A DNA stretch of 53,208 nucleotides from Desulfobacterales bacterium (GTDB lineage: Bacteria > Desulfobacterota > Desulfobacteria > Desulfobacterales > JAAELO01), in assembly GCA_024226555.1 (NCBI GenBank), contig JAAELO010000666.1, positions 1 through 53,208 on the forward strand, given 5' to 3'. Of this stretch, positions 2,450 through 38,844 are shown in pieces. The notes below the pieces were generated by a model. The model saw only the letters and a list, made by a program, of their open reading frames with translations. It did not search any database and was not told the DNA's origin. The position numbers and the translations under genes were made by a program. Position 1 is the stretch's first letter. Every line of letters starts with the position of its first letter.

Positions 2450-5398
2450 ATGACCAAACCATCAATAGAAGAAGCACAAAATTCTGTAAAAAAAGATTTC
2501 TCTTTTAAGATTTATTATGAACTTATGAAAGAGAGAGTTGGTGAAATACTTCTCATTTCAAGCCCCTACGATGCTTTTATTGTTGAAGAAGATGGCGGTG
2601 TTGCTGAAAGAATTATCCATGAATATAAAGGACTTAATCTTTCAAGGCCACCAAAAATCACGTGTGTCTCATCGGGAAGGGAAGCACTTGATACTCTGGA
2701 AGAAAGAATGTGTGATCTTGTTATCATAATGCCAAGATTAGATGATATTGATCCTTATTTATTATGCCGTACAATAAAGAGAATGAATCCAGATCTTCCG
2801 ATAATATTTCTATCCCATGATTCAGGGAAACATTTAATAGATGAAAAGCAGGATGGTATTGATAAAAATTATATCTGGAGAGGAAATTCTGACCTTTTAC
2901 TTGCTCTTATAAAAAGTGCTGAAGATAGAATGAATGTTGCAAAAGATACAGAAAAAGCAAAAGTAAGGGTCATAATATTTGTTGAGGATTCACCTTTATA
3001 TAGCTCAACTCTTCTACCTTATTTATATAAAGAACTTGTTAGTCAGACAAGAGCTGTGATGGATGACTCTCTAAATGAAGAGGACAGAATAGTTAGGATG
3101 AGAGCAAGGCCAAAACTTTTACATGCAGAAAATTATGAAGAAGCTATGGAGTTGTTCGATAAATACAGACCATATGTTTCATGCATAATTACAGATGTCA
3201 GGTTTCCTTGCAAAGGTAAAGAGAACGAAAAAGCCGGAATTACACTTACTAAGAAAATTCTAAAAAAAGTTCCGGAACTCCCTGTTCTTATACTAAGTAC
3301 TGAGGAGCAGAACAGAAAAAAAGCTGAGGAGATGTCAGCTGTTTTTATAAATAAAAATTCAACAGCCCTCCATGCAAGAATTAGACACTTCTTTGTAAGC
3401 CATCTAGGATTTGGAGAATTCCTATTCAGGCTTAGCAATGGAAAAATAGTTGGTAGAGCATCAAACTTAAGAGCGCTTGGAAAAATTCTTAGTTCAATAC
3501 CCGAAGAATCTATAACCTACCATGCGAATAGAAATGATTTTTCAACTTGGTTAACAGCAAGGTTTGAAATGAAACTCGCTTCATTACTAAAAAAAGTAAC
3601 AATGGAAGATTTTCCAACAGCAATAGAAGCTAAAGAGTTTCTAACAAACACAATAAAAAATAAACTTATTGAAAGACATAAGGGAGTAGTTGCTGAATTT
3701 GATCAGCATGGTTTTGATACTCATGCTGATTTTATTAAAATAGGTAAAGGTTCATTGGGGGGGAAGGCAAGAGGCCTTGCTTTTATGGCATCGGTTTTAG
3801 AAGAGAATGAAAAAATCCATGAAAAATTTCCTGATGTTCACATAAGAATACCAACTATGATTGTAATAACAACAGAGGGTTTTGATTCATTTGTTGATGA
3901 GAATGGTCTGAAAGATTATAACCCTGAAGGTATGACAGATGAGGAGATAGAAAAGTATTTTTCAGGTTTAAATTTTCCTGACTGGCTCAGAAGTGACCTT
4001 GCAATGTTTCTTGCACAGATTAACTACCCTCTTGCAGTACGATCATCAAGCCTTCTTGAAGATGCACATTTCAGACCCTGTGCGGGAGTATATAAAACAT
4101 ATATGATCCCGAACAGTCATTTTGATCTTAAGATTAGATTATCTCAATTGATTCATGCTGTTAAAATGGTTTATGCCTCTTTGTTTTTAGAAATACCAAG
4201 AGAGCTTGAAAAAAATACTATTTACAGAACAGAAGAAGATAAAATGGCTGTTATTATTCAGCAGTTATCAGGTACGCAGAACAGCGATTTTTTTTACCCT
4301 TCAATTTCAGGTGTTGCACAATCCTATAACTTCTACCCTATATCATATATGAAAGCTGAAGAGGGTATCGCTCATATTGCACTTGGACTTGGACAAACAG
4401 TTGTTGAAGGTGGCACAGCAATACGTTTCTCTCCCAAGTATCCTCAGTTTATACCTCAGTTTTCAAAGGTGGAAGATATTTTAAATAATTCCCAGAAGAA
4501 ATTCTATGCTCTGAAGATGTCAAAATATTCTATGAGTAATGACCCTGAGAAATCCCTTGCAGTACAGAAATTAGATATTGATGATGCACTCGACCATGAA
4601 GCAATTAAACCAATTCTGAGCTCGTACATCCCGCAGGACAATAAGATTAGGGACTCAGTAGTCAAAGGGGGATTTCCAATTATAACATTTGCAAATGTCC
4701 TGAAATACAATAATGTTCCTATACCTGAAATTATTGAAAACATGCTTGAAGTTGGTAGAAAAGGTATGGGTTGCCCTGTTGAAATAGAGTTCGCAGCAAA
4801 TATTAATGAGCAGGTTCCAGAGTTTACACTTCTTCAAATCAGACCTATGGTTGTTTCACAACAAAAAATAGCAATAGATATTACAGATGAGGAGAAAGAA
4901 AATGGCCTTTGCTATTCTGGAAATACAATGGGTAGAGGACAGGTCCAGGAAATACATGATATTGTATATGTTAAATTGTCCGATTTTGATAATGCTCAAA
5001 CAGTTACAATTGCAAAAGAAGTTGGTGAAATAAATAAGAAAATCGATAGTAAATATCTTTTAATTGGTCCAGGAAGATGGGGTACTGCTGACAGGTGGCT
5101 CGGAATTCCTGTGTCATGGGGGAATATATCAAATGTGGGGACAATCGTTGAAACCGCTACCATGGAGTTAAGAGCTGATCCATCTCAGGGCTCTCATTTT
5201 TTTCATAATATTACTTCGCTTGATATTAATTATATGACTGTGTCTCTATCTGGAGATGATTTTATTGACTGGAACTATTTAAATCAATTTGAAGCCACCA
5301 ACGAAAGTAAATATGTTAAACACATACACTTTGATAAACCAGTGATACTAAAAATTGATGGTAAAGATTCTATCGCAGTGATATTGAAACCTGATTGA
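2450..5398 (+). CDS. Receiver-like / PEP-pyruvate-binding fusion protein
   Basis: A 982-aa protein. Residues about 30-160 and 170-320 look like two response-regulator-type domains; the second has an acidic VEDSP and a later TDVRFP. From about residue 425 comes the ATP-grasp PEP/pyruvate-binding domain of PEP synthases and pyruvate phosphate dikinases: KGSLGGKARGLAFMA (about 432-446), LAVRSSSLLEDA (about 528-539), and LLQIRPMV (about 794-801). A distinctive tail has GPGRWGTADRWLGIPVSW (about 873-890). The phosphohistidine swivel domain and the C-terminal TIM barrel of true PEP synthase are absent, so complete PEP synthase chemistry is not expected. A phosphotransfer or regulatory role controlled by receivers is an inference. 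It is monocistronic. Confidence 0.8.
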   Translation: MTKPSIEEAQNSVKKDFSFKIYYELMKERVGEILLISSPYDAFIVEEDGGVAERIIHEYKGLNLSRPPKITCVSSGREALDTLEERMCDLVIIMPRLDDIDPYLLCRTIKRMNPDLPIIFLSHDSGKHLIDEKQDGIDKNYIWRGNSDLLLALIKSAEDRMNVAKDTEKAKVRVIIFVEDSPLYSSTLLPYLYKELVSQTRAVMDDSLNEEDRIVRMRARPKLLHAENYEEAMELFDKYRPYVSCIITDVRFPCKGKENEKAGITLTKKILKKVPELPVLILSTEEQNRKKAEEMSAVFINKNSTALHARIRHFFVSHLGFGEFLFRLSNGKIVGRASNLRALGKILSSIPEESITYHANRNDFSTWLTARFEMKLASLLKKVTMEDFPTAIEAKEFLTNTIKNKLIERHKGVVAEFDQHGFDTHADFIKIGKGSLGGKARGLAFMASVLEENEKIHEKFPDVHIRIPTMIVITTEGFDSFVDENGLKDYNPEGMTDEEIEKYFSGLNFPDWLRSDLAMFLAQINYPLAVRSSSLLEDAHFRPCAGVYKTYMIPNSHFDLKIRLSQLIHAVKMVYASLFLEIPRELEKNTIYRTEEDKMAVIIQQLSGTQNSDFFYPSISGVAQSYNFYPISYMKAEEGIAHIALGLGQTVVEGGTAIRFSPKYPQFIPQFSKVEDILNNSQKKFYALKMSKYSMSNDPEKSLAVQKLDIDDALDHEAIKPILSSYIPQDNKIRDSVVKGGFPIITFANVLKYNNVPIPEIIENMLEVGRKGMGCPVEIEFAANINEQVPEFTLLQIRPMVVSQQKIAIDITDEEKENGLCYSGNTMGRGQVQEIHDIVYVKLSDFDNAQTVTIAKEVGEINKKIDSKYLLIGPGRWGTADRWLGIPVSWGNISNVGTIVETATMELRADPSQGSHFFHNITSLDINYMTVSLSGDDFIDWNYLNQFEATNESKYVKHIHFDKPVILKIDGKDSIAVILKPD

Positions 5399-15150: not shown

Positions 15151-15351
15151 CGCAGTTCTCCGTTTAAAATACTTTATAAGCAAACATGAATAAAAAGTTT
15201 GAGTTGATAATTTTTAATTTTATAAATTTGATTTTATGGTATTTGAATTTAAAATACAACGAATTACAGTTTATTTCACATTGAAAACATGTTCTGATGT
15301 TTAAAACTGATCTTTAATGAAAATATGATTTAAAAAAACATGGTGATCAAA

Positions 15352-15906
15352 ATGGAAAATATTAAGCAATGGCTTGAAAAAACAGAAGAGAATAACTTTA
15401 AATCCTGGTTAGTTGGGATTTTACTTTTTATACTGGGAATAGTTGGTATTTTTCTATTGAACAGATTCATATACTCAGGTAGTGGCCCTAAAATAAATTA
15501 TTTATTAAGTATTTTAATTATAGCCAGTGGTTATAAATTGTGGATGGCATCTGCAGCAGCATCTGTTTCTTTTGATTTTTTTAAAGGAATATTTAAAACA
15601 CTTTTTAGTATCATATGGTCAAGAAAGATGGGTAAAGAGGAAGTTGAGGAATCTATTCCAGAAGAACTGTTTGAGAAAAAATTACTTGAAATGGCAGCTA
15701 CCATGAGAAAAGGCTCAAGAAAATTTGTATGGGTTGGGATTTTCCTGGGTTTTATTTTCGGAGCTATCAACCATCTGTTTATAATGGCGGGTTCAGAAGT
15801 TAACGGAATCCTTGCATTCACAATATTTGGTGGAATATACGGATTTGTATGGTATCGCCTTGCATGGGCTGCTTTGGTACCTGTTTCAGTGGAATTGTAT
15901 CAATAG
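15352..15906 (+). CDS. Integral membrane protein of unknown function
   Basis: About 184 aa with roughly four membrane segments (residues about 20-40, 47-70, 125-145 and 155-175). A charged cytoplasmic-type loop in the middle contains GKEEVEESIPEELFEKK. No family was recognised. The ATG at 15352 is preferred because GGTGA lies 5-6 bp upstream; an in-frame ATG at 15340 is the alternative. It ends 51 bp before the patatin gene on the same strand without a terminator, so it may be the first gene of the lipid operon. Confidence 0.65.
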   Translation: MENIKQWLEKTEENNFKSWLVGILLFILGIVGIFLLNRFIYSGSGPKINYLLSILIIASGYKLWMASAAASVSFDFFKGIFKTLFSIIWSRKMGKEEVEESIPEELFEKKLLEMAATMRKGSRKFVWVGIFLGFIFGAINHLFIMAGSEVNGILAFTIFGGIYGFVWYRLAWAALVPVSVELYQ

Positions 15907-15957: not shown

Positions 15958-17091
15958 GTGAATGCTATAAAAAAGTATAAAAATACCATTGTTTTTTCCG
16001 GTGGTGGTTTCAGAGTTGGAATGTATTTAGGCATGTTTGCAGCGGCAAATGATGCTGGAATTAAACCCGATCTGATTATAGCTTCATGCGGAGGTTCACT
16101 TTCAACCGCAATAATAAACTCATTCAAAACAGATACAGAACGAAAAAATTTCCTTTTGTCTGAAAAGGTATACACTTTTTTTAAATCAATGTCTCTTACA
16201 AAAGAGAAGATGCTGTATCGAATAGGAATTGACAGTTTAATACGGCAATTGCGTAAGAAAAATGCTTCCCACATAATTGACCTTTTTACTAAATATATCG
16301 TTGATATTCCTGATTTTAATAATTTTTTTCCTGAAATCAGCAATAGTTTCAACAACTCAATAAATGTTATGATTATCGGTTCTAAAATACTCTATTCAAA
16401 AGATGATGTTGGTTTGAAAAGGGGAAACAGAAAACTGTTTAAAGAAATTATTATTACTGATCCACAAACCAAAAAACTTTTAGAAGGTATAGATTCTAAG
16501 ATCGGTGTTAATCACAGGGATAGCGCGATTCATAAAGAGATCGGAATTTATACAGATATCCCTGTGAAAAAAGCCGTTAGAATATCAATTGCAGATATGT
16601 TTTACTTCTCTCCTTACCAGTTGAACAGTGAATATTATATGGGTGGGGCTGTAAACCTTATGCCCATTGAAATAGCTAACAGGGTTTCAAATTCTGTGAT
16701 TTTTGAATTCAAGCAGGAATACAAACCTAAAATTGAAGAATCAGCATTACGAAATGTTTTTGGTTATAGTGGAATCGATAGAATGAAAGCTATCCACGAT
16801 ATGCACAGTGACCACTGGATAGACACAACAGATGCACCTGTAAAACTGAAAAACCGTTATATATCAACAAAAATAAATTATAAAAAACTCTGTGTGGATT
16901 TGACATTACCGGAAAGCTATGAAAAATTCAGATCTGACATGCTGTTCCAATGGGACTATGGTTACAAAAGAGCTACGGAGTCATTTTCATTTAAAGAAAA
17001 AAATTATAAAAATCACATTAGAAATGTAAACAGATATAATACTTCAGAAGGGTTGATCTATAAAATTAACAAAACAAGAGAATCTATATGA
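15958..17091 (+). CDS. Patatin-like phospholipase family protein
   Basis: A 377-aa protein. The glycine-rich oxyanion loop SGGGFRVGMYLG (about 14-25) and the nucleophile elbow ASCGGSLSTA (about 42-51, Ser47) identify the patatin fold. The elbow reads G-G-S-L-S rather than G-x-S-x-G. The dyad Asp, expected in a DGG motif, is replaced in YYMGGAVNLMP (about 225-235). Catalysis is therefore doubtful; it may bind lipid or use another acid. The start is a GTG at 15958 with only a distant AGGA. The stop overlaps the SDR start by 4 bp, so the two are co-translated. Confidence 0.8.
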   Translation: MNAIKKYKNTIVFSGGGFRVGMYLGMFAAANDAGIKPDLIIASCGGSLSTAIINSFKTDTERKNFLLSEKVYTFFKSMSLTKEKMLYRIGIDSLIRQLRKKNASHIIDLFTKYIVDIPDFNNFFPEISNSFNNSINVMIIGSKILYSKDDVGLKRGNRKLFKEIIITDPQTKKLLEGIDSKIGVNHRDSAIHKEIGIYTDIPVKKAVRISIADMFYFSPYQLNSEYYMGGAVNLMPIEIANRVSNSVIFEFKQEYKPKIEESALRNVFGYSGIDRMKAIHDMHSDHWIDTTDAPVKLKNRYISTKINYKKLCVDLTLPESYEKFRSDMLFQWDYGYKRATESFSFKEKNYKNHIRNVNRYNTSEGLIYKINKTRESI

Positions 17092-17831
17092 ATATTTTTA
17101 TAACCGGAGGAACCTCAGGAATCGGACTTGGTTTAGCAATTCACTATCTGGAGAAAGGTCATAGAGTTGGTATCTGTGGAAGAGATATTAGCAAAGTTGA
17201 TGATGAACTGGTTAAAAAAAACAGTAAATTAGAACTATTTCAGTTAGATGTCTATAACAAGAACTCTCTTGTAAATGCTGTGAATACTTTTTCCGGTGGT
17301 AATCTGGATCTTATGATTGCTTGTGCTGGTAGCTATGCCAATTCTAGAACTGCCCTCCTTACCAGAATTGAGGCAACTGATATGTTGAAGATAAATGTTG
17401 TCGGAACTTTAAATGCGATTGAAGCAGCAAGTGAAATTATGGTTGAAAAGGGATCAGGGCATATCATAGCAATTGCATCAGTAGCCGGTTTAATGAACTA
17501 TCCAGGAGCATCTGTATATAGCTCTACAAAAGGTGCTGTGATCAAAATTTGTAAAACATATAATACTGCCCTCTCAGAATTTGGTGTTTCTGTTTCTGTT
17601 ATAGCACCAGGATATATTGACACAGAAAAATTAAGAGAACTTAACAACAATGATATTAGCAAAAAACCATTTGTTGTACCTTTAGATTATGCAGTAAAAA
17701 AAATAACAGAAAGCATAGAGAACAAAAAGATTATAACCGTTTTTCCATTACGTATGAAGATATTGGTATCCATATTAAATATTTTACCTGAAAAGCTTTT
17801 AGCATTAATTTTGATAAGAAAAAAAAGATGA
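17088..17831 (+). CDS. Short-chain dehydrogenase/reductase
   Basis: A 247-aa classical SDR. The nucleotide-binding motif TGGTSGIG is at residues 6-13, the active-site Ser in IASVAG (about 130), and the catalytic YSSTK (about 144-148). It reduces or oxidises a carbonyl/alcohol with NAD(P)H; the substrate is unknown. The C-terminus is hydrophobic and basic (ILNILPEKLLALILIRKKR), suggesting membrane association, which fits a lipid substrate. It overlaps the patatin gene and the phosphatase gene by 4 bp on each side. Confidence 0.92.
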   Translation: MNIFITGGTSGIGLGLAIHYLEKGHRVGICGRDISKVDDELVKKNSKLELFQLDVYNKNSLVNAVNTFSGGNLDLMIACAGSYANSRTALLTRIEATDMLKINVVGTLNAIEAASEIMVEKGSGHIIAIASVAGLMNYPGASVYSSTKGAVIKICKTYNTALSEFGVSVSVIAPGYIDTEKLRELNNNDISKKPFVVPLDYAVKKITESIENKKIITVFPLRMKILVSILNILPEKLLALILIRKKR

Positions 17832-19093
17832 ACTTAAAATCTAAACATAATTACATCTGGATGGTTATAAGCTATCTGACATTCATGATACTTTATAATT
17901 TGTCAAATTATTATGCTTCGCGCCTTGGTTCTGTGCCATCGATCTATTTTGAATGGGAGAATCAAATTCCATTCATACCCATAATGATCATTCCATATTT
18001 CTCGTCAGGGATTTTTTTTGCGATGATCTTTCTAATGTGTGAAAAAAACGATGAAACACATCTATTGGCAAAAAGAGTAATTTTTATAACAATTATCTCA
18101 GTCATCTGTTTTTTTATATATCCTTTGTCATTTTCATTTGAAAAACCTCCTGTTTCAAATGGGTTTTTAAATTTTTTCTTTGATTCACTTTCAACCTTCG
18201 ATAAAAAATATAATCAATGCCCTTCCCTTCATATTTCCTATTGTTTTGTATACTGGTCTGTTTTTCAGAATAAAGTTAAGGGCGTTTTAAAGTATTTAAC
18301 CGGATTCTGGTTACTTTTACTGGCTGTTTCAACATTAACTGTGTATCAGCATCATTACATAGATATTTTAGGTGGTACTTTTGTTACTATAGTGGCTTTT
18401 TGTTTATTCCCGGAGAGGGAAAATAAGAGAAGGAAACAGAACATATCTGTTGCATCTATATATTATATATTAAGTTTTATCTTATTTTCATTGGCTACTA
18501 CTGTTTCCGGCTTATCATTAATACTTCTCTATCCGGCTTTAAGCTGTTTTTTTGTGGGAGTTGCATATTTCCATAACAACCCTTTTTTTGTAAATAAGAG
18601 AAATGGTAAAATCCCTCTTATTTCCTGGATAATATACGGACCATATCTTTTTGCATATTTCATAATTCTCAAATTTTTTAACAAAAATAAAAAATCATGT
18701 ACAGAGATTATTCCAGGTTTATATACCGGAAACAGGTTGAATACGGAAGATGCAAAAAAAATAATTACAAAAGATATGGCAGTAATTGACCTTACACCTG
18801 AAGTTACAGAAAACAGATTATGCTACCAGTCTGAATATTACTATTTTCCATTTTTAGATATTTGTACACCCCGGCAGGAGATTTATAATGATGCACTCGG
18901 TACTCTCGCAAACTTACTGGATTCAGGTAAAAAAGTTTATGTACATTGTACCATGGGGTATTCGAGAAGTTTAATATTGATTATTGCTTATTTAATAAAG
19001 TACAAAAATACAGGGAAAGAGATAGCAATTTCTCAGGTAAAAGAGAAAAGACCTGAATTGGTGTTGAAACAATACCTGTATGATATTCTGTAA
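17828..19093 (+). CDS. ynbD: YnbD-like PAP2 / dual-specificity phosphatase fusion
   Basis: A 421-aa protein with an N-terminal multi-pass PAP2-type domain. CPSLHISY (about 133-140) and HHYIDILGG (about 177-185) are the histidine motifs of lipid phosphate phosphatases. After membrane segments comes a C-terminal dual-specificity phosphatase domain with the signature VYVHCTMGYSRS (about 373-384). This domain order is that of E. coli YnbD, and the downstream genes match the other ynb products. It would dephosphorylate a lipid phosphate intermediate at the inner membrane. The start overlaps the SDR gene by 4 bp. Confidence 0.88.
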   Translation: MNLKSKHNYIWMVISYLTFMILYNLSNYYASRLGSVPSIYFEWENQIPFIPIMIIPYFSSGIFFAMIFLMCEKNDETHLLAKRVIFITIISVICFFIYPLSFSFEKPPVSNGFLNFFFDSLSTFDKKYNQCPSLHISYCFVYWSVFQNKVKGVLKYLTGFWLLLLAVSTLTVYQHHYIDILGGTFVTIVAFCLFPERENKRRKQNISVASIYYILSFILFSLATTVSGLSLILLYPALSCFFVGVAYFHNNPFFVNKRNGKIPLISWIIYGPYLFAYFIILKFFNKNKKSCTEIIPGLYTGNRLNTEDAKKIITKDMAVIDLTPEVTENRLCYQSEYYYFPFLDICTPRQEIYNDALGTLANLLDSGKKVYVHCTMGYSRSLILIIAYLIKYKNTGKEIAISQVKEKRPELVLKQYLYDIL

Positions 19094-19165
19094 TTTCTTC
19101 TGTATTTATTAAGTAAACTGATGTATGTCTTCATTTATTTACTAATGAGAACCTTAAGGAGTTAA

Positions 19166-20104
19166 ATGTTTTCAGTTAAAATACCTCAAAACTCTTTTTA
19201 TGCTATGGCAGGGATTCTATTATTTTTATCCTCTGCAACACTATTCGTTTTATTAATTAAAAAGTTCAACAAATCAAAAGATCATTCAGAGCTTTTTCTT
19301 CGTATAAGATCATGGTGGTTTATTCTGATCCCCCTTTTTGTGGTTCTTTCAATAAATGATACTGTTTTTATAATAACTTTTTGTATAATGAGCCTTTTTG
19401 CCTTCAAAGAGTTTATCGGAATTATGCCTACCAGAAAAAAAGACAGGTTAATCAGATATCTTGTTTATTTATCAATTCCTATTCAGTATTACTGGGTTTC
19501 TATTGGCTGGTATGGAATGTTTATCATATTTATTCCCATATATATTTTTCTTTTTTTACCGGCTGTCATGGTTTTACTTGGAGAGACAAAAGGTTTTATA
19601 AAATCTGTTGGTAATTTCCACTGGGTTGTTATGTTAACAGTTTTTTCAATAAGTCATGTGGCTTATTTAATAAAACTTCCTGAAAAAAACCCGGATGCCG
19701 GCTCAATTGGTTTAATTTTATATCTTCTGCTCCTAACTGAGTTCAATGATGTATCACAATTCATATGGGGCAAGTGTTTTGGAAAACATAAAATAGTTCC
19801 AAAAGTCAGTCCTAATAAAACCTGGGAAGGCTTTTTGGGAGGATTGATAACAATAACATTGATTGCTGGATTCATAGCACCTTACCTTACACCAATGAAC
19901 AGATTGTATGGATTTTATGCAGGGATTGTTATCAGTGTAAGTGGATTTATAGGTGATACAGTTATCTCTTCAGTAAAGAGAGATCTTAACATAAAAGACA
20001 GTGGTTCAATAATTCCTGGGCACGGTGGTATTTTAGACAGAATTGACAGCTTACTATATACATCACCACTATTTTTTCACTTCATGCATTACTTTTACTA
20101 TTAA
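19166..20104 (+). CDS. ynbB: YnbB-like CDP-diglyceride synthetase (CdsA family)
   Basis: A 312-aa, multi-pass protein. The C-terminal CdsA signature is complete: SSVKRDLNIKDSG (about 272-284) followed by PGHGGILDRIDS. It also has SPNKTWEGFLGG in the preceding loop. CdsA enzymes make CDP-diacylglycerol from phosphatidate and CTP. As I recall, E. coli YnbB has been reported as a CdsA paralogue linked to a glycolipid pathway. Position next to ynbD-, ynbC- and ynbA-like genes argues for the paralogue rather than housekeeping CdsA. AAGGAG precedes the start. Confidence 0.9.
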   Translation: MFSVKIPQNSFYAMAGILLFLSSATLFVLLIKKFNKSKDHSELFLRIRSWWFILIPLFVVLSINDTVFIITFCIMSLFAFKEFIGIMPTRKKDRLIRYLVYLSIPIQYYWVSIGWYGMFIIFIPIYIFLFLPAVMVLLGETKGFIKSVGNFHWVVMLTVFSISHVAYLIKLPEKNPDAGSIGLILYLLLLTEFNDVSQFIWGKCFGKHKIVPKVSPNKTWEGFLGGLITITLIAGFIAPYLTPMNRLYGFYAGIVISVSGFIGDTVISSVKRDLNIKDSGSIIPGHGGILDRIDSLLYTSPLFFHFMHYFYY

Positions 20105-20114
20105 AGGATCATAA

Positions 20115-21863
20115 ATGAATCAGGAAAGATCAGTATCAGAAAATTTTTTTCAAACAAGTGACGGCACAGAACTTTTTTACAGAAAGTGGGAGCCTGTCTC
20201 TGAGAGTTCAAAAAAAAATGCAATGATAGTTTTACATAGAGGCCATGAACATTCAGGAAGGCTTCATGATATGATTGAAAAGCTCGATCTTCCTGAATTT
20301 TATGCTTTTGGTTATGATAGCAGAGGTCATGGTAAATCACCAGGCATACGAGGACATGCAAAAGATTTCAGCACTCTTGTTGATGACCTTGATCAATTTT
20401 GTAAGCATGTTTCAAAAGAGTATGACATTCCGGTTCAAAATATAGTTATTGTTGCAAACAGTGTTGCAGCGGTTTTGACAAGTGCCTGGGTACATGATTA
20501 TGCTCCGCAGATAAGAGGTATGGTTTTAGTTGCACCAGCTCTTAGAATAAAACTATATGTTCCATTCGCTCTTTTTTTCATTCGTATATTAAATCTAATA
20601 AAAGATAAGAGTTTTATCTCAAGCTATATTAAGGGACGATTATTAACCCACGACAAGAATCTTGCTGTGGATTATGATACTGATCAGCTTATAACCAAAA
20701 AAATCGCAGTTAATATTTTAATTGATCTGCATGACACTGCCACAAGAATTTTAGATGATGCAGAGGCTATTACAGTTCCAACATGCATTTTATCATCTGG
20801 CTCGGACATGGTTGTAAGAAACACCCCGCAACATGAACTATTTAAGAAAATTTCTGCTGTTGATAAAGAGATCCACATATTTCCTGGTTTTTTTCATGGC
20901 CTTTTCTTTGAAAAGGATAGAGAAAAACCAATAGGTGTGGCAAGAAATTTTATAAATAAAATATATAATAGTGATGAAGAACCGGTAAATCTTCTGAATT
21001 CTGATAAAGAGGGTTTCACAAAATATGAATATAACCTTCTCCAATCAAAAATCTCTTTTTTAAAGAAAATGCTCTATGGTGTAACAAGGCTTTCTATGTC
21101 AACTATAGGTTCTTTAAGCAAAGGTATTCACATTGGAAACAGATACGGCTTTGACTCAGGAGTATCCCTTGATCATGTTTATAAAAACAAACCTTCAGGA
21201 AAAACATTTATTGGTAAAATAATTGATTACTTCTACTTAAACTCAGTGGGTTGGAAAGGTATCAGATTAAGAAAAATTAACTTAATAGGCTCAATTGAAG
21301 ATGCTATTCAAAAACTAAAAGAGAGTGATTCTCCGGTTAGAATTATGGATATTGCAGCAGGGCCTGGTAGATACCTGATTGAAATAGCAGAAAAACACAA
21401 CAACATCGAAATTTTGTCCTGTGATAATAAAAAAGAAAATATAGAAGAGGGAAAAAAGATAGCAAATGACAAAGGGGTCAGTAATATTGAATTTAAAATT
21501 TCCGATGCTTTTAGTGAAAGTTCTTTTAAAAATCATGATTTTAAGCCAAACATTGTCATAGTCTCTGGCTTATTTGAGTTATTCCCTTCAAATGATGATA
21601 TAAACAGGTCTCTTTCTGCAGCTACAAAGATAATGGATGAAAATTCATATATAATCTATACGGGCCAACCCTGGCATCCGCAAATTGAGTTTATTGCGCA
21701 AACTCTTTTTAACAGAGATAAGGAGATGTGGATAATGAGGAGAAGAACTCAATTGGAGCTGGATCAATTGTTTGGACAATACGGATTTATAAAAACTGAT
21801 ATGAAAATAGGTAAATACGGGATTTTTACTGTTTCAACGGCTAAAAAAGAGAAAATAAGATGA
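20115..21863 (+). CDS. ynbC: YnbC-like alpha/beta hydrolase / SAM methyltransferase fusion
   Basis: A 582-aa protein, close to the length of E. coli YnbC. Residues about 1-290 form an alpha/beta hydrolase of the monoacylglycerol-lipase type, with LHRGHEHSGRL (about 39-49), YDSRGHGKSPGIRGH and a nucleophile-like VANSVAAV. This last is A-x-S-x-A instead of G-x-S-x-G. Residues about 390-580 form a class I methyltransferase with motif I MDIAAGPGRYLIEIAE. It begins 10 bp after the ynbB-like gene and overlaps the ynbA-like gene by 4 bp. Substrate unknown; a lipid headgroup or acyl ester is likely from context. Confidence 0.9.
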   Translation: MNQERSVSENFFQTSDGTELFYRKWEPVSESSKKNAMIVLHRGHEHSGRLHDMIEKLDLPEFYAFGYDSRGHGKSPGIRGHAKDFSTLVDDLDQFCKHVSKEYDIPVQNIVIVANSVAAVLTSAWVHDYAPQIRGMVLVAPALRIKLYVPFALFFIRILNLIKDKSFISSYIKGRLLTHDKNLAVDYDTDQLITKKIAVNILIDLHDTATRILDDAEAITVPTCILSSGSDMVVRNTPQHELFKKISAVDKEIHIFPGFFHGLFFEKDREKPIGVARNFINKIYNSDEEPVNLLNSDKEGFTKYEYNLLQSKISFLKKMLYGVTRLSMSTIGSLSKGIHIGNRYGFDSGVSLDHVYKNKPSGKTFIGKIIDYFYLNSVGWKGIRLRKINLIGSIEDAIQKLKESDSPVRIMDIAAGPGRYLIEIAEKHNNIEILSCDNKKENIEEGKKIANDKGVSNIEFKISDAFSESSFKNHDFKPNIVIVSGLFELFPSNDDINRSLSAATKIMDENSYIIYTGQPWHPQIEFIAQTLFNRDKEMWIMRRRTQLELDQLFGQYGFIKTDMKIGKYGIFTVSTAKKEKIR

Positions 21864-22456
21864 TTAGTATTTATAAATTAAAACCATGGTTTCAGAACCT
21901 TCTTAGACCTATTTGTTTCAGGATTGTAGAGAGAGGCATAACTGCAAATAATGTAACAATTGCTTCAGCAATCCTTTCTGTAATCACAGGACTTTTACTG
22001 ATATTTCTAAATTCTTACAGAGCTCTTTTTTTTATACTACCTTTTTTCATGCTGCTTCGAATGGCACTTAATGCGATTGATGGAATAATCGCAAAAGATT
22101 TTAACATGAAAACCAATGAAGGTGCCATTTACAATGAGCTTTGCGATGTTGTTTCAGATACATTTCTATATCTGCCCTTTGCATTTCTTCCGGAATATAA
22201 TTCAACAATAGTTTTCATAGTAATAATTCTTTCAGTAATTACTGAGATGTCAGGAGTTCTCGCATTTTCAATAGGTGCTGAAAGAAGTTATGTTGGCCCC
22301 ATGGGTAAAAGTGACAGAGCTTTTGTATTCAGCATCCTTGCAATTGTTGTTGGTTATGGAATAGATCCTGATATTTATTCTACACCCTTCTTTTTAATTA
22401 TAATTTTATTGCTTATATATACGATTTATAATCGCATTAAAAGTGCTCTCGGATAA
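21860..22456 (+). CDS. ynbA: YnbA-like CDP-alcohol phosphatidyltransferase
   Basis: A 198-aa membrane enzyme. The CDP-alcohol signature is present in variant form, IDGIIAKDF (about 73-81) then GAIYNELCDVVSD. The first Asp of the usual second D-x3-D is replaced by the Asn of NELCD. From memory E. coli YnbA shows the same Asn, which supports the assignment. It would transfer a phosphatidyl group from CDP-diacylglycerol to an alcohol acceptor, consuming the product of the YnbB-like enzyme. It is the last gene of the operon. Confidence 0.9.
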   Translation: MISIYKLKPWFQNLLRPICFRIVERGITANNVTIASAILSVITGLLLIFLNSYRALFFILPFFMLLRMALNAIDGIIAKDFNMKTNEGAIYNELCDVVSDTFLYLPFAFLPEYNSTIVFIVIILSVITEMSGVLAFSIGAERSYVGPMGKSDRAFVFSILAIVVGYGIDPDIYSTPFFLIIILLLIYTIYNRIKSALG

Positions 22457-32557: not shown

Positions 32558-33703
32558 TTGAAAGAAAGAATATCCACGTTTCTGTTTGGTGTTGTGTTCT
32601 TTATATTAGCAACAACCGTTTCAGTAGCAAATGATGTTGAACTATCACCTGCACAACTCGTTGCAGAAAAATTTAAGAGTGTATTAAGTGGTAATGATGC
32701 CTCCGATGTAAAAGCCATGATGGCAAAGAAGTACAAAGTGCTTCGTTTAATGAATGGAGATGGTACCTGGAAAGATCCAGCACTTACTGACATATCAGGT
32801 TACCTTTTGCCGTATGATATTGATAATGCAAAGCTTGAAGCATTTATTGATAAGATTGCTGAAACTGCTGAGGAAAACCCATATCTTATGAATTTTCTGA
32901 ATCAGACTAAAGGAAAAACTTTTGAAAACCTGTTTAATAAAGTTGAGAAAGAAGGGGATCGTGTTCTTCCTGATGTTATTTCCTATGCACTTGTTCTTGA
33001 TCGTCTAACATTTGCAATGAGTGATGATTGGAAAATCCTGGAAACCTGTAAGAATATATGGATTAGTGAAAAGGAAAAAGTTGATTTAAAAAAATATCTT
33101 AACCTTTTTGAAATTGCCAAAATAACAACTATTGAGTACAGAATTGGTTCATATATTGATTATCATAAAACCAGAGAGATTCCTTCCTACTCTTCAAAAG
33201 TTATGCTTCCTGTAAATATCATGGAGGCGGTTATAACTGATAAGGTTAATGGTTTTAATAACAATGCCATTGCAGGTCTTGTACTTACAAAGAATCCCAG
33301 CGGTAATTTAATTAACGACCCAAAAACAGGCTCAGGCCCAACTACATGGTCTGAAGATGGAAAGACAATAGAATACCGACCACCTCTACCTTTACAGTGG
33401 TCAAATCTGTATGCAACCTGGAATATGGCTTTCGTTTCACAGTATGAAAACTTCCCATACTTCTTCTGTAAACTTTTGGTTCCACAGGTTAATGCATTTC
33501 AGGAACATCCTGAGGGCTACCTGTATAACAGAGTACTATCTCTTAATACTCACATCTACTTCACACTTTTCGAACGAATCGATAACGAAATTGCTGGTAT
33601 CGAAGGGATAAAATGGAATGACGATGATCTGACAGCTCAATGGGGAGAGGTTAACAAGAAAAGTTCATTTGACTATCAGATATCAGTTTGGGAAGCAAAA
33701 TAA
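32558..33703 (+). CDS. Secreted protein of unknown family, tandem copy 1
   Basis: A 381-aa protein with a clear signal peptide (to about VSVAN, residue 25). The mature part is mostly helical, then a Pro/aromatic-rich C-terminal half with GSGPTTWSEDGKTIEYRPPL and NLYATWNMAF. No known domain was recognised. The start is a TTG at 32558, chosen because AGGAG is exactly 7 bp upstream. The next gene encodes a clear paralogue of nearly identical length, so this is a tandem duplication. Location (periplasm or outside) follows from the signal peptide only. Confidence 0.78.
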   Translation: MKERISTFLFGVVFFILATTVSVANDVELSPAQLVAEKFKSVLSGNDASDVKAMMAKKYKVLRLMNGDGTWKDPALTDISGYLLPYDIDNAKLEAFIDKIAETAEENPYLMNFLNQTKGKTFENLFNKVEKEGDRVLPDVISYALVLDRLTFAMSDDWKILETCKNIWISEKEKVDLKKYLNLFEIAKITTIEYRIGSYIDYHKTREIPSYSSKVMLPVNIMEAVITDKVNGFNNNAIAGLVLTKNPSGNLINDPKTGSGPTTWSEDGKTIEYRPPLPLQWSNLYATWNMAFVSQYENFPYFFCKLLVPQVNAFQEHPEGYLYNRVLSLNTHIYFTLFERIDNEIAGIEGIKWNDDDLTAQWGEVNKKSSFDYQISVWEAK

Positions 33704-33735
33704 ATTTCATATCTTATTTAAGGAGTAATTATTTC

Positions 33736-34878
33736 ATGAAAAAATATTTATTGTTCACATTTTTTATTGGATCATTGTTTGTATTATTTACAAATACCAG
33801 TATTGCATCAACTATAGAGAATACTACTATTCCCAGGGAAGTTGCTGAAGTAATCAAAACAAAACTGGATGGTGTGGACGCAGATGATATCAGATCATTA
33901 CTGAAGCAAAAATATATTATATTCCACTTACTGGACAATGAAGGCAATTGGAAATCACCTGAATTAGCAGCTATTTCTGACTCTCTTTTGCCAGCTAAGC
34001 TTGATATGAAAGATATAAAATCGTTTGTTGACAGGGCAGCAATAGCTGCTGAAGCAAATCAATATCTAATGGATTTTTTAAATCAGGCCAGCAATAAAAA
34101 CTTTGATAATCTGTTCAGTAAAGTTGAGTCTGAAGGTCAGAAGATATTGCCGGATGTTGTTTCACTTGCAATGGCTCTTGAGCGGTTAACTATCGCAATG
34201 AGAAACGACTGGAAAGTTTTGGAAGCATGCAGCTTAATTTGGAAAGAAGCTAAAGAGTCAATTGATCTTAAAAAATATCTGAGTCTGTTTGGTCGTGCTA
34301 AGCTTGTTTCTGTAGAAGTGGTAATTGGTCAGTATATTGACTCACACAAGAGTGGTAAGATAAAAGGATATGCAGGAAGAGTCTCCCTGCCTGTGAATAT
34401 TATGGAGGCAGTTATTGCAGATTTCAAAAAAGGTAATAAAGAGAACGCTGCTGCTGGTATTGTTCTGGCCAAAAGTAACCCGGGGTCTATTATTGAAGAT
34501 CCTGTAACTGGTGCAGGTCCTACCCGCTGGTCTGATGATGGCAAAGCTATCGATTACTATCCTCCACTTCCCAAAAAATATGCGGATATATATGCCACAT
34601 GGAATATGGCTTATCTTTCAACTTATCAGGATTTTCCATATTTTTTGACTAAGCTTTTTATTCCTCAGGTAAACGATTATCAGGAGAATCCTGAAGGGTA
34701 TCTTTATAATCGAGCCTTAGCTTTGTATTCTTTTGTATATTATGTAACTTTTCAGCGTATTTATTATGAAGATAACGGTATTGAAACAATTGACTGGCAA
34801 GATCAATCTCTAACATCCCTATGGGGTGTTGTAAACAAGGAAAGTGCTCTTAAGTATGAACTTGACCAAAAAAAATGA
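33736..34878 (+). CDS. Secreted protein of unknown family, tandem copy 2
   Basis: A 380-aa paralogue of the preceding gene, aligned along its length. Shared stretches include LPVNIMEAVI, GAGPTRWSDDGKAIDYYPPL, ATWNMA, PEGYLYNRAL and the DLKKYL motif. It has its own signal peptide (to about SIAST). AGGAG at 33721-33725 fixes the ATG at 33736, 32 bp after the first copy's stop, so the pair is probably one transcript. The conserved Trp/Tyr/Pro-rich C-terminal half may be the functional core. Function unknown. Confidence 0.8.
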   Translation: MKKYLLFTFFIGSLFVLFTNTSIASTIENTTIPREVAEVIKTKLDGVDADDIRSLLKQKYIIFHLLDNEGNWKSPELAAISDSLLPAKLDMKDIKSFVDRAAIAAEANQYLMDFLNQASNKNFDNLFSKVESEGQKILPDVVSLAMALERLTIAMRNDWKVLEACSLIWKEAKESIDLKKYLSLFGRAKLVSVEVVIGQYIDSHKSGKIKGYAGRVSLPVNIMEAVIADFKKGNKENAAAGIVLAKSNPGSIIEDPVTGAGPTRWSDDGKAIDYYPPLPKKYADIYATWNMAYLSTYQDFPYFLTKLFIPQVNDYQENPEGYLYNRALALYSFVYYVTFQRIYYEDNGIETIDWQDQSLTSLWGVVNKESALKYELDQKK

Positions 34879-34987: not shown

Positions 34988-36301
34988 TCAGAAACGTTGT
35001 TTTTTTACTACTTTTGATACTTTCCATGGGTTCCATTTATCTTCGAATGAAGATCTGTGTATTATCTCCATAATATGGGCATAGGTTCTTATTAAACGTA
35101 AAAATATTCCATGATACAAAGGCATAAGAGGTAAAAATATAATTAACATATATTCCTGAAATCGCATTGTTTTCCCATATAATTTTGTTGCCAGAATAAA
35201 CTCAATTACATTTGTGGAAAAGTACAATAAATAGTTAATAACAAAGATGATTGCAATGAATTTTGGATTTAAAAATATAATGTAAAATATATATATCCAC
35301 CACTTAAAATTCATTACCATATTAAAAAGCAGATTATCTACTACAGTTAGGAAATTGAAAATATTGAAATTTCTGTTTTTAAAAGATAGAAGATCTGAAT
35401 GTTTTCTTAATCTGAAACGAACCAAAGATCTGTCCCATCTATACCTTTGTTTGATTAACTTTATAAAGCTATCAGGGACGCTTGTGTAACAAACAGCCTC
35501 AGGTTCATGCTTAACTTTTAATCCAAGTTTCCTTATTTTTAATGTCAAATCTCCATCAAGACCAGGACCAACATCCCAGCCTTTTATCTGGTCCAGAACA
35601 TCTTTTCTGAAGGCACCAAAGGCTCCTGAAATAATACGTAAAATCCCCAATTGAGAATTAACAACCCGACCTGTTGATATTGACTTCATATAGTCAATTG
35701 ACTGAAGAGAGGTTGCTAAATTGGCATAAATGTTTTTAACGCGTAAATCACCTCCAACAGCACCTATTGAGGAATCCATGTAAAATGGAATAATTATCTG
35801 TTCTACAGAATCTTCCTTAAGATGAGTATCAGCATCCAGATGAACAACATATTTCCCATTTGAATACATCAGTGCAAGGTTAGCCGCAGATGCTTTTCCA
35901 CCGCGCACATCATTACGAAAAATGGAATCAATTTTACCTTCATTTTTAAGTTTTCTTAAAATTTTGAAAGTATTATCATCTGATCCATCATCCACTATTA
36001 TGGTCTCAATATTTTTATATGTCTGTCTATTCAGCGATTTTGCGAGTTCAGGGATATATCTTCCTTCATTTTTTCCAGGTACTATAATTGAAATCAACGG
36101 ATTTTCCTTAAAAAGTCTCAACCGTGCATCAACCCGAACCGGCCTGTTTTTCTTTTTTTTAAAGAAATATACCATTAGAAAAAATGTATCAGCCAGTACA
36201 TATCTTGAAAAATCAAAAACCAGGAAAAACCAGAAATAATAAAACAGGTCTACAGCATCCTGACTATTGATAAAATCCAGTGCATTAGTTAGCAGTTGCA
36301 T
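34988..36301 (-). CDS. Processive family 2 glycosyltransferase (polysaccharide synthase)
   Basis: A 437-aa membrane protein with an N-terminal membrane segment and about four near the C-terminus. The cytoplasmic GT-A domain shows ISIIVPGKNEGRYIPELA, the UDP-binding HLDADTH, the acceptor-site GDLTLKIRKLG and the processive-synthase motif QRYRWDRS. These are the D, DxD, (E/D)D and QxxRW features of cellulose, PNAG and hyaluronan-type synthases. GDL stands where TED or GED is usual, with Asp as acid. Start at 36301: GGAG about 9 bp upstream. It overlaps the TackOD1 gene by 17 bp. It is the last gene of the operon. Confidence 0.9.
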   Translation of the reverse strand: MQLLTNALDFINSQDAVDLFYYFWFFLVFDFSRYVLADTFFLMVYFFKKKKNRPVRVDARLRLFKENPLISIIVPGKNEGRYIPELAKSLNRQTYKNIETIIVDDGSDDNTFKILRKLKNEGKIDSIFRNDVRGGKASAANLALMYSNGKYVVHLDADTHLKEDSVEQIIIPFYMDSSIGAVGGDLRVKNIYANLATSLQSIDYMKSISTGRVVNSQLGILRIISGAFGAFRKDVLDQIKGWDVGPGLDGDLTLKIRKLGLKVKHEPEAVCYTSVPDSFIKLIKQRYRWDRSLVRFRLRKHSDLLSFKNRNFNIFNFLTVVDNLLFNMVMNFKWWIYIFYIIFLNPKFIAIIFVINYLLYFSTNVIEFILATKLYGKTMRFQEYMLIIFLPLMPLYHGIFLRLIRTYAHIMEIIHRSSFEDKWNPWKVSKVVKKQRF

Positions 36302-37691
36302 TTTCAATTACTCCTGTTAGTACACTTTCAACATCCTGATCCTTATTTAATGAAATTGAGCTAGTGTTAATTTCTATCTGTTTCTCAAAATTGCTTTCTA
36401 TTAAAACAGAAAATTTCTCCTTCAGTCTTCTGAGAGCAACATCAGCTCCTGTACTATCAGTTTCAGGAAGAAGAGATATAAAGGTTACTTCATTGATCGT
36501 TGTGGTTATGTCACAGGTCCTTAAAACAGAATTTAAAATATCACCTATTTCGCTGAAGATCTGCCTGGTTCTTTTTCCCAATTGAGCATAAAACTGTTCA
36601 GATTGAGTAATTTGAAAAAGTATAACACTTGATTTTGATATGTCATATCTTCTTATACGTTCAATTTCTGAGCTAAGGAGTATTTTAAAAGCCTGGTAGG
36701 GCAGAATTTTAATCTTTTCATCAAGAATCTGGATAAACATTTGATCTATACCATGTATCGCAGCATTTTCTCCAAGAGCAGTAATGCTGTATTTTTTGAT
36801 CTTTCTTTTTTGTAAATCTTCAGGCTCCGTAACTGTACTACAATGAAAACATGTAGTTGAAATGTCAGGGTTCTGACTTGTATGCCTGCAACTGTTGCAA
36901 CGAAAAACTGTTGCAGGTTTATCATAATCAACACCAAGGCCTTTAAGCTCCTTGTCACATTTGGGACATATGAGAGAGCCGTTTTGCTTGAAATTTTTAG
37001 CAGGAGCAACATGGGCGCAATCAAAATGGTGCACCAGATCATCATCTTCAAGATCTGCTGATCCACAGTGGGGACAAACTTCCATAAAGTTTAAAAATGA
37101 ACTGTTGCAATGAATGCAAAGATGAACTTTTTCATAAAACTCCTGACTCAAAAGATTTTGATCTTCCAGAAAATCAAGAGTGTTATAAATAGTTTCATCT
37201 TTACTTCTCATAAAAATATCAATGTTTGGATAATATAGCCCAAATCGATTTCCTGACCCACGAAACGGAGTTAATGACATTTTTCTGGTCATGATATACC
37301 TTAATACTTTTAGTGCAATATTTGTATCTTTTACTCCTTTAAAACCTTGTATTTCTTCAATTCTCTGATTGATACTCCCATATGAAGCCGGAAAAAATGA
37401 GTTATTAAGTGCATCAGTCTGTTCAATAGTGAAATACCCATCTGCTATATTATTAATAGTAAAATTTTCATTTGAATTTATTAGTATAATTGGCTTCAAA
37501 TATATAGCAGGATTTGTATCCCTTCTAATTGCTTCACATGCAGCTTTTGCATATTTTTTATTTTCACAGTTTACTATAAATATCTCACTTTCAAGTGGAG
37601 GGTTATCTTTTATTTCCTTTAAAGAAATCGAAACCACAGAAAGTTCTCCAATTTGCGTTATCTTTTTTTCATCTATTATAAATATATTCAT
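36285..37691 (-). CDS. TackOD1 / degenerate GGDEF protein
   Basis: A 468-aa protein. The N-terminal 100 residues look like a decayed receiver domain. Residues about 191-284 are Cys-rich (C192, C195, C206, C209, C225, C242, C245, C265, C268, C281, C284) in the pattern of the thaumarchaeal output domain 1 (TackOD1). Motifs include EVCPHCGSADLEDDDLVHHF and KGLGVDYDKPATVFRCNSC. Residues about 340-455 resemble GGDEF, but the signature is replaced by INEVT, so diguanylate cyclase activity is unlikely; it may bind c-di-GMP or a partner. The ATGA overlap with the HlyD gene shows co-translation. Confidence 0.78.
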   Translation of the reverse strand: MNIFIIDEKKITQIGELSVVSISLKEIKDNPPLESEIFIVNCENKKYAKAACEAIRRDTNPAIYLKPIILINSNENFTINNIADGYFTIEQTDALNNSFFPASYGSINQRIEEIQGFKGVKDTNIALKVLRYIMTRKMSLTPFRGSGNRFGLYYPNIDIFMRSKDETIYNTLDFLEDQNLLSQEFYEKVHLCIHCNSSFLNFMEVCPHCGSADLEDDDLVHHFDCAHVAPAKNFKQNGSLICPKCDKELKGLGVDYDKPATVFRCNSCRHTSQNPDISTTCFHCSTVTEPEDLQKRKIKKYSITALGENAAIHGIDQMFIQILDEKIKILPYQAFKILLSSEIERIRRYDISKSSVILFQITQSEQFYAQLGKRTRQIFSEIGDILNSVLRTCDITTTINEVTFISLLPETDSTGADVALRRLKEKFSVLIESNFEKQIEINTSSISLNKDQDVESVLTGVIENATAN

Positions 37692-38842
37692 TTTTTTATC
37701 CTTATTCTGACATCCATCCTGTCAAATTTACGCCATATCTTTTTTTCATCACTATTAGCAGGGACCAGCTCCACAAGAATCTTGGATTTTATAGGAATAT
37801 AATCTTCACGTAATTTTTCCCGAAAATATGACGCTGTTGAATATTTACTTTTGATAATACCAACACTTTTTGTATTATCCGGGAAAGTAATTTCAACTCT
37901 CTTTCCAATACCTAAATGTGTAAAATACTTAATTTTGAAAAAACTGTGTATGGTCACCTTCGCATCAATTGATCTTATTAAAAGTATTGATTCCTTAGGA
38001 AGAAACTGACCGCCCAAAGATTTGAAAATAACCTGTACATATCCACTAATTGGTGATTTTAAGACTCTTATACCCGGGTTTCTCTCTCTTCGGATTAGTT
38101 CAATTGAATTAATTTCTGATTTTTTTTCAATTATTTTTATTTTTAATTCATCTATTTCTTTATTTATTAAAGCTCTTTTATATTTTTTAAGAGATTTTAT
38201 TTCATTTTTTTTATTATTAATCATTATAGTTGATTGGATTTTCTCCTGTTTATAAGTGGTATAATCATTTAAAGAATTATGTGATAATTCCAGCAGCCTG
38301 TTCTTAGATAAAATATCAACGCTGTTATTCCAAAGCCTTGATTTTAGATCTTTTTTTTCTGAAATTGAAATCAGTTCAATATTTTTTAATCGTATATCAT
38401 TATTTATTTTGATTATTTTATCTGAAACAGCAGGATTCTTATCTGATCTCAACCTATGCATTTTATTTTTAAGATTTTTTATTATCATCTTATTAATTTG
38501 AATACTCTTTTCAAAATTCATATTTTTGTTTTTCATAAATACTGAATTTGAAAGGGGTTGGATTTTAACCAGAGGCTGTGACTTCTCAATATAATCACCT
38601 TTTCCTACTAACATCTCCTGTATAGTACCTTCAAAATCACTATTTATTAGATATCCACCAATTTCTACCTGTCCTCTGCCTTCAATGAAAATGAATTTTT
38701 CAGATACATAATAAACAAAGTAAATTCCAATCGATACAATAATTAGTGTGTAAATAAATGATGATACTTTTTTGGATTTATTTACAGGCGCTTTACCTTC
38801 CGGCAATGATGAGAAGTAACTTTTTCTGTTTCTGATTCTCAT
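37688..38842 (-). CDS. HlyD-family membrane-fusion (adaptor) protein
   Basis: A 384-aa inner-membrane-anchored adaptor. One membrane segment lies at about residues 27-46. It is followed by a lipoyl-like half (GYLINSDFEGTIQEMLVGKG at about 63-82) and a long coiled coil (about 100-250). The second lipoyl half is VLKSPISGYVQVIFKSLGGQ, and a beta-barrel region follows. It would bridge an inner-membrane machine to an outer-membrane channel. It starts 2 bp after the preceding stop and overlaps the TackOD1 gene. Confidence 0.88.
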   Translation of the reverse strand: MRIRNRKSYFSSLPEGKAPVNKSKKVSSFIYTLIIVSIGIYFVYYVSEKFIFIEGRGQVEIGGYLINSDFEGTIQEMLVGKGDYIEKSQPLVKIQPLSNSVFMKNKNMNFEKSIQINKMIIKNLKNKMHRLRSDKNPAVSDKIIKINNDIRLKNIELISISEKKDLKSRLWNNSVDILSKNRLLELSHNSLNDYTTYKQEKIQSTIMINNKKNEIKSLKKYKRALINKEIDELKIKIIEKKSEINSIELIRRERNPGIRVLKSPISGYVQVIFKSLGGQFLPKESILLIRSIDAKVTIHSFFKIKYFTHLGIGKRVEITFPDNTKSVGIIKSKYSTASYFREKLREDYIPIKSKILVELVPANSDEKKIWRKFDRMDVRIRIKK

Positions 38843-38844
38843 AA

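Follow-up and report, generated by a model that had tools for sequence, protein, structure and literature searches.

The ynbABCD operon of Escherichia coli K-12 (b1408 to b1411) is already known and remains uncharacterised in the literature surveyed. Its four genes, in the order A-B-C-D, encode a CDP-alcohol phosphotransferase (YnbA), a cytidylyltransferase of the CDP-diacylglycerol synthase type (YnbB), an alpha/beta hydrolase fused to an S-adenosylmethionine (SAM) methyltransferase (YnbC) and a protein in which a PAP2-like helical half is joined to a dual-specificity phosphatase (DSP) domain (YnbD); homologues of these proteins are referred to here as A to D. The same four proteins, with both fusions and both asparagines in the YnbA motif, are encoded in a stretch of 53,208 nucleotides from a Desulfobacterales bacterium (hereafter the window, i.e. 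contig C665 of a 904-contig, 7.7 Mb genome that is 98% complete). In the window, however, the order is D-B-C-A and two extra genes lie upstream, for a patatin-like protein (PAT) and a short-chain reductase (SDR), neither of which occurs in the K-12 locus (nor does PlsC). We propose, with a rough probability of 0.45, that this PAT-type ynb operon encodes a dedicated pathway to a phospholipid, a patatin with a cysteine nucleophile and the SDR together having taken over the acyltransferase step that usually falls to PlsC. The PAT/SDR type of cluster and the Cys-patatin family seem to be new, and the open-licence literature surveyed (mostly top-ranked results) held no ynb product, no Cys patatin and no PAT/SDR cluster type. 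The six genes, all on the + strand at 15958-22456, are:

15958-17091, +: PAT, patatin-like protein (open reading frame (ORF); Pfam Patatin 47.3 bits; residue alignments)
17088-17831, +: SDR, classical short-chain reductase (ORF; adh_short 135 bits; S/Y/K alignment)
17828-19093, +: D, YnbD homologue, PAP2-like helical half plus DSP domain (Pfam, blastp, motifs, model)
19166-20104, +: B, YnbB homologue, CDP-diacylglycerol synthase type cytidylyltransferase (CTP_transf_1 216 bits, blastp)
20115-21863, +: C, YnbC homologue, alpha/beta hydrolase and SAM methyltransferase fusion (Pfam, blastp, residues)
21860-22456, +: A, YnbA homologue, CDP-alcohol phosphotransferase (Pfam, blastp, signature alignment)

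Four-base overlaps (ATGA) join PAT to SDR, SDR to D and C to A, while 72 bases separate D from B and 10 bases B from C. A first-pass annotation of this DNA had matched the last four genes to YnbD, YnbB, YnbC and YnbA, including the fusions of PAP2 with DSP in D and of hydrolase with methyltransferase in C, and this is borne out by Pfam and by blastp against E. coli K-12, with identities of 31% for D (1e-62), 43% for B (6e-78), 40% for C (1e-166) and 43% for A (4e-49). Homologues of all four proteins are thus encoded together, as expected of a YnbABCD-type operon, and the ORF coordinates confirm the gene order as well as the upstream position of the patatin-like and SDR genes with their overlapping codons.

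The cluster of six families is found again in a very remote group of bacteria. A plasmid search with PAT gave one match, the Moraxella osloensis plasmid pNP7-2 (26% identity over 89%), which holds all six: A and C start as a single frame that is interrupted within C and are followed by PAT and SDR, while B and a D split by an insertion lie on the opposite strand. The proteins are 26-37% identical to those of the window over the aligned parts. In the order of a named Pseudomonas, a three-row PAT profile found matches in 42 of 293 genomes, three of them strong (213-218 bits) and the rest generic, at 31 bits or less. With a 21-row profile, 66 genomes matched (E up to 1e-15) among 348 from a single gammaproteobacterial family. 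Since its clade in the tree includes the PAT of M. osloensis, this family is probably Moraxellaceae. All 66 PAT neighbourhoods of the family were fetched (14-19 kb each); A and C are present in every one and consecutive with PAT, SDR is present in 64 and B in 63. The layout, [A-C]-PAT-SDR><B as on pNP7-2, shares PAT, A and C with the window, and nearly always SDR and B, with PAT and SDR adjacent and PlsC lacking; it differs in that B is convergent, D is linked in 9/66 and A and C usually make up a single open frame (58/66), which argues for a shared function. In two of three such genomes searched for D no match was found, and D is dispensable in PAT clusters. The co-occurrence survey proposed with the first-pass annotation, for which the absence of these six families from other genomes was the refuting outcome, therefore finds them together in eight of the 66 family genomes and on the M. 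osloensis plasmid; together with the window, and with the plasmid copy although it is partly broken, there are ten such sets. Since the same six families cluster in a distant lineage, the simplest interpretation is a pathway dedicated to a lipid.

Beyond these groups, strong PAT matches were few. In samples of the window's class and phylum (389 and 395 genomes, with some overlap) the window genome alone had one, all others staying below 30 bits; none of the 95 other genomes in one search belongs to the window genome's family. Among 50 genomes searched whole, drawn from the best 80 ynbA loci, one had a strong PAT (G811), and no PAT was found in phages (with a Moraxella PAT query) or viral contigs (with a two-row alignment query). 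In the trees, C and PAT of the Moraxella type form clades of their own on long branches, compatible with both a single and a double origin of the PAT-SDR association.

Whether PAT and SDR add to the ynb genes or replace something can be judged from the other cluster types. Clusters of the types A-B-PlsC and A-C-D-C5-PlsC-B (in Methylococcales, Pseudomonas and others) share A and B with the window, the second type also C and D. Instead of the PAT and SDR of PAT-type clusters, both carry the acyltransferase PlsC, and C5 is added in the second. We examined 90 ynbA loci, i.e. the best 80 of at least 491 relatives and ten chosen ones (E. coli K-12, four from plasmid records, the Moraxella plasmid, three PAT-bearing genome loci and the window), and counted PlsC if it exceeded 100 bits within 8.5 kb. 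B is present in 81 of these loci, 77 without and four with PAT; PlsC occurs in 68 of the 77 versus none of the four (Fisher p 0.0004, related loci not being independent). Nor was PlsC found in any of the 66 family neighbourhoods, even at 40 bits (two of the 66 being also among the four PAT loci), so that PAT and PlsC share a cluster in 0/68 cases (66 from the family, the plasmid and the window), counts which are not phylogenetically independent. Of the nine A+B loci with neither PAT nor PlsC, five (L009, L020, L027, L040, L075) are cut off at B by the end of the contig. A-B-PlsC, with neither C nor D, is a frequent unit and is read as one where phosphatidic acid would be made, activated and transferred; D, in turn, was found together with C in 41 of the 46 loci with C, and never without it. 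These counts suggest that PAT and SDR replace the PlsC gene rather than extend ynb. The linkage noted in the first-pass annotation thus stands, while 'extension', the word used there, is too simple and replacement of PlsC fits better.

Two observations concern these clusters in their own right. C5, usually found after D in A-C-D clusters, is a small protein of about 150 amino acids with no Pfam match (e.g. L018 13725-14177), and the conjugative E. coli plasmid pFHI_NMBU_11_02 (L122) carries an A-B-PlsC-C cluster of the ynb type together with a D-like stretch.

The patatin-like protein of the window scores well above the cut-off of the Patatin domain (47.3 versus 27.7 bits), and 20 of 21 PAT family members match this domain; the best solved relative of the 21-member profile is the patatin PlpD (5fqu, 42.6 bits). 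Patatins generally, PlpD included, have a Ser-Asp dyad, in GxSxG and 'DGG' motifs, and PAT has neither residue. The GxSxG serine position is occupied by a cysteine (Cys44 in the window), which aligns with the serine of PlpD GTSMG and is found in 83/83 readable rows of an 85-row alignment, the split open frames L271 and L289 having a gap there. The 'DGG' aspartate column (Met228 in the window) holds no Asp in any of the 85 rows, but L, F, M, V, I, S or W, and in the alignment with PlpD its Asp falls opposite a gap in the PAT family. Arg208 (85/85 rows) and Asp213 (84/85) are conserved polar residues. Of the oxyanion glycines, the first (Gly15) is present in 83/83 readable rows, the second in 79 and the third in 78. 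Alignment A4 excludes the L185 and L179 copies; the L179 PAT was missed by blastp and is present in no alignment. A single-sequence AlphaFold model of PAT was discarded for its low confidence (pLDDT 31.6). Judged from these residues, PAT is a patatin-type family with a different active site and no ordinary lipase; the acyl removal that the first-pass annotation had ascribed to it cannot be read from the patatin name, because neither the catalytic Ser nor the catalytic Asp is retained in the aligned relatives.

PAT could still be a lipid hydrolase of the ordinary kind, with the cysteine as its nucleophile and with the operon trimming and remodelling a lipid. The near-universal Patatin domain match and the largely kept oxyanion-hole glycines fit this, as does the intact triad of the C hydrolase, because of which deacylation is to be expected somewhere in the gene set. 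That same hydrolase, however, already provides the activity, and both members of the Ser-Asp dyad are replaced in every readable PAT row, which makes this explanation unlikely. Alternatively, PAT could bind lipids without any catalysis and serve as a scaffold for the A-C enzyme, with the conserved cysteine being structural or a thiol switch. The lack of Asp at the DGG position in all 85 rows and the place of PAT directly behind A-C in all 66 family clusters are in line with such a role, but a nucleophile position that is always Cys, together with the kept oxyanion glycines, Arg208 and Asp213, resembles a working active site, and we consider a mere scaffold decidedly doubtful.

Cys-patatins also occur on their own. 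The start of a standalone copy at L123 (1414-2559) resembles a lipoprotein leader, because of which some standalone Cys-patatins may be exported; other standalone copies are found in Bdellovibrionota (L172-L188).

The SDR (adh_short, 135 bits) has an intact classical active site, Ser131-Tyr144-Lys148, with S/Y/K in 68/68 aligned rows, and the solved structures that match it best belong to bacterial SDRs of a generic kind (ElxO, FabG-like). Elsewhere in the window genome (G000), contigs C493, C313 and C453 hold very long frames (2,609-4,315 amino acids) with matches to the SDR profile, perhaps polyketide synthases.

The proposed pathway, for which gene order, domains, catalytic-residue patterns, recurrence and the lack of PlsC in PAT clusters are observed and for which we infer every substrate and product, would start with PAT loading an acyl group onto Cys44 and handing it to a lipid precursor. 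The SDR would reduce a carbonyl on the precursor or the product, the conversion of acyl-dihydroxyacetone phosphate (acyl-DHAP) to lysophosphatidate being the most economical guess. B (CTP_transf_1, 216 bits) would then convert the resulting phosphatidic acid to CDP-diacylglycerol, and in favour of this step E. coli YnbB is reported to make CDP-diacylglycerol in vitro (PMC7018664). A, an atypical CDP-alcohol phosphotransferase, would swap CMP for a small alcohol, and D, where present, would take off a phosphate. Finally, the hydrolase half of C (Hydrolase_4, 199 bits) would remove an acyl group and its methyltransferase half (Methyltransf_20, 337 bits) would methylate the head group; the triad Ser116-Asp231-His261 and the core of the SAM motif are kept in 32/32 rows. 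The product is probably a membrane lipid, and may be one that has not yet been described.

For D, Pfam recognises the phosphatase (DSPc, 58 bits), with PAP2_3 (24 bits) and PAP2 (22 bits) under their cut-offs. The motifs PS.H (with Leu between in 32), QHH..D and Cys374 occur in 33/33 rows. In the model of D (mean pLDDT 85) the N-terminal half is helical and is taken to lie in the membrane, and the DSP domain (about residues 289-421) is C-terminal. By sequence profile this domain is nearest to PTPMT1 (3rgo, 62.5 bits, the next at 57.6), while the matches listed in the structure search are DSP domains or proteins holding one, with Z about 17-19 across DSPs, such that their ranks are not separable. 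PTPMT1 is described as a phosphatidylglycerophosphate (PGP) phosphatase (PMC4485230), and E. coli YnbD, within the accessible text of the study concerned, did not complement a PGP phosphatase mutant or bacA-type mutants (PMC7413402).

The head group would be set by A, which matches CDP-OH_P_transf at 26.5 bits (cut-off 22). The signature of CDP-alcohol phosphotransferases is given as DxxDGxxAR...GxxxDxxxD, with four absolutely conserved Asp (PMC4634129), of which the first three are described as binding metal (PMC4634129, PMC6506517), and the residue after the fourth is stated to be always K or R (PMC6506517). The YnbA family departs from this signature: it reads N..DG..A...G...N...D in all 65 homologues aligned (63 of 68 ORFs above 100 bits, namely those under 260 amino acids, plus the window and E. 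coli), so that two metal-ligand Asp, the first and third, are Asn (N71 and N92 in the window), while the second, the fourth and both Gly are retained. The variant Asn of the first-pass annotation is therefore real, except that there are two rather than one. In the window Lys replaces the signature Arg, and the residue after the fourth Asp is V, I or L in 65/65, from which the acceptor of A may be non-phosphorylated. The best solved match of A is phosphatidylinositol-phosphate synthase (6h53, 39 bits) and the best NCBIfam match archaetidylinositol phosphate synthase (71 bits versus a cut-off of 180), from both of which A differs by the Asn at the first and third positions and by V/I/L after the fourth. 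An inositol head group was considered and is disfavoured, since no match to Inos-1-P_synth (inositol-1-phosphate synthase) was found in the window genome or in seven of eight other ynbA-bearing genomes, although inositol phosphate could be scavenged.

Another explanation starts from B, in which the operon would serve to produce an MPIase-type glycolipid (GlcNAc-PP-diacylglycerol) or to back up its production. Overproduction of E. coli YnbB is reported to yield more MPIase, and YnbB to restore MPIase under CdsA depletion (PMC6362211, PMC7018664); deletion of ynbB, on the other hand, is reported in the available part of one of these studies to leave the MPIase level without significant change (PMC6362211), and A, C, D, PAT and SDR would all be left unexplained, which renders this highly improbable. 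That PAT and SDR are chance neighbours unrelated to the ynb genes, for which their absence near ynbA in the best 80 of at least 491 relatives and the standalone PAT copies could be cited, is already contradicted by the linkage counts of PAT (66/66) and SDR (64/66) in one family, on the plasmid and in the window with its overlapping codons, and has next to no probability left.

Several points weigh against a dedicated pathway in which PAT and SDR stand in for PlsC. The PAT-ynb association was found in two lineages only, and the PAT, SDR and C of the window are not closest to the Moraxella-type copies. Within the family, SDR is missing in 2/66 clusters and B in 3/66. PlsC is truly missing nearby in four PAT-less A+B loci (E. 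coli K-12, Fusobacterium and two of Gilliamella), and because some PAT-less ynb clusters also lack it, its absence alone is no proof of replacement. In Bdellovibrionota, where 16 of 290 genomes have a strong PAT (18 copies, at least 131 bits; one of the 16 had supplied a row to the search profile), PAT stands alone, with 0/18 loci linked to A-D, which means that it works outside ynb clusters too. Four of these loci have SDR-like neighbours, at 42-63 bits only, and no association of PAT with ynbA was seen in this phylum: a strong YnbA (291 bits) occurs in one of the 16 PAT genomes (G811, which was reached because of its YnbA) and in none of 20 PAT-lacking ones (best 63 bits). The V/I/L after the fourth Asp of A argues against a phosphorylated acceptor and, with that, against D acting on the product of A. 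The acyl-DHAP role of the SDR is a guess that rests on chemistry only, and we know of no enzyme activity for PAT or the SDR of the operon.

The operon is not set apart from its surroundings by composition, the GC content being even across the window (28-38% in 2-kb steps). Promoter-like sites (53 versus 43.9 in shuffled sequence, sd 7.1) and terminator-like sites (4 versus 3.5, sd 2.1) in the window are near expectation. A further gene ends 51 bases upstream of PAT and is possibly the first gene of the operon:

15340-15906, +: small hydrophobic protein, no family found (ORF; family searches without match)

Elsewhere in the window, a WecG/TagA-type glycosyltransferase is fused to two STAS stretches (49994-51508, +), a combination that looks unusual, and the nucleotide-binding domain of pyruvate phosphate dikinase is fused to two response-regulator receiver stretches (2450-5398, +). 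At 34988-40908 (-), a glycosyltransferase-like protein, a TackOD1 and GGDEF protein, a membrane-fusion-like protein and a large family-less protein are encoded adjacently and may form a regulated locus for polysaccharide secretion. Of these labels, TackOD1, GGDEF (borderline) and the missing family come from Pfam, and the others were read from the sequence. An adjacent pair of paralogues of 381 and 396 amino acids at 32558-34878 (+) has no Pfam match at 0.001.

For the ynb genes, the comparison of cluster types suggests that PAT and SDR may fill the role that PlsC has elsewhere, and a missing step of ynb is thereby narrowed down to acyl supply. In its most far-reaching form, which we put forward tentatively and would sooner expect to fail than to hold, the proposal is that PAT is a new patatin subfamily with a Cys nucleophile that acts as an acyltransferase, replaces PlsC together with the SDR and leads to an undescribed class of bacterial phospholipids, and at the same time that the pair of Asn in the YnbA family is the sign of a CDP-alcohol phosphotransferase whose metal chemistry is altered and whose head group is new. 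The lipase fold in question is a large one, and Cys-patatins, in which the Arg is always and the Asp nearly always kept, would add a new catalytic variant to it. For ynbABCD, a lipid-type operon of E. coli that has no known product in the literature surveyed, the PAT-type clusters provide a comparative handle.

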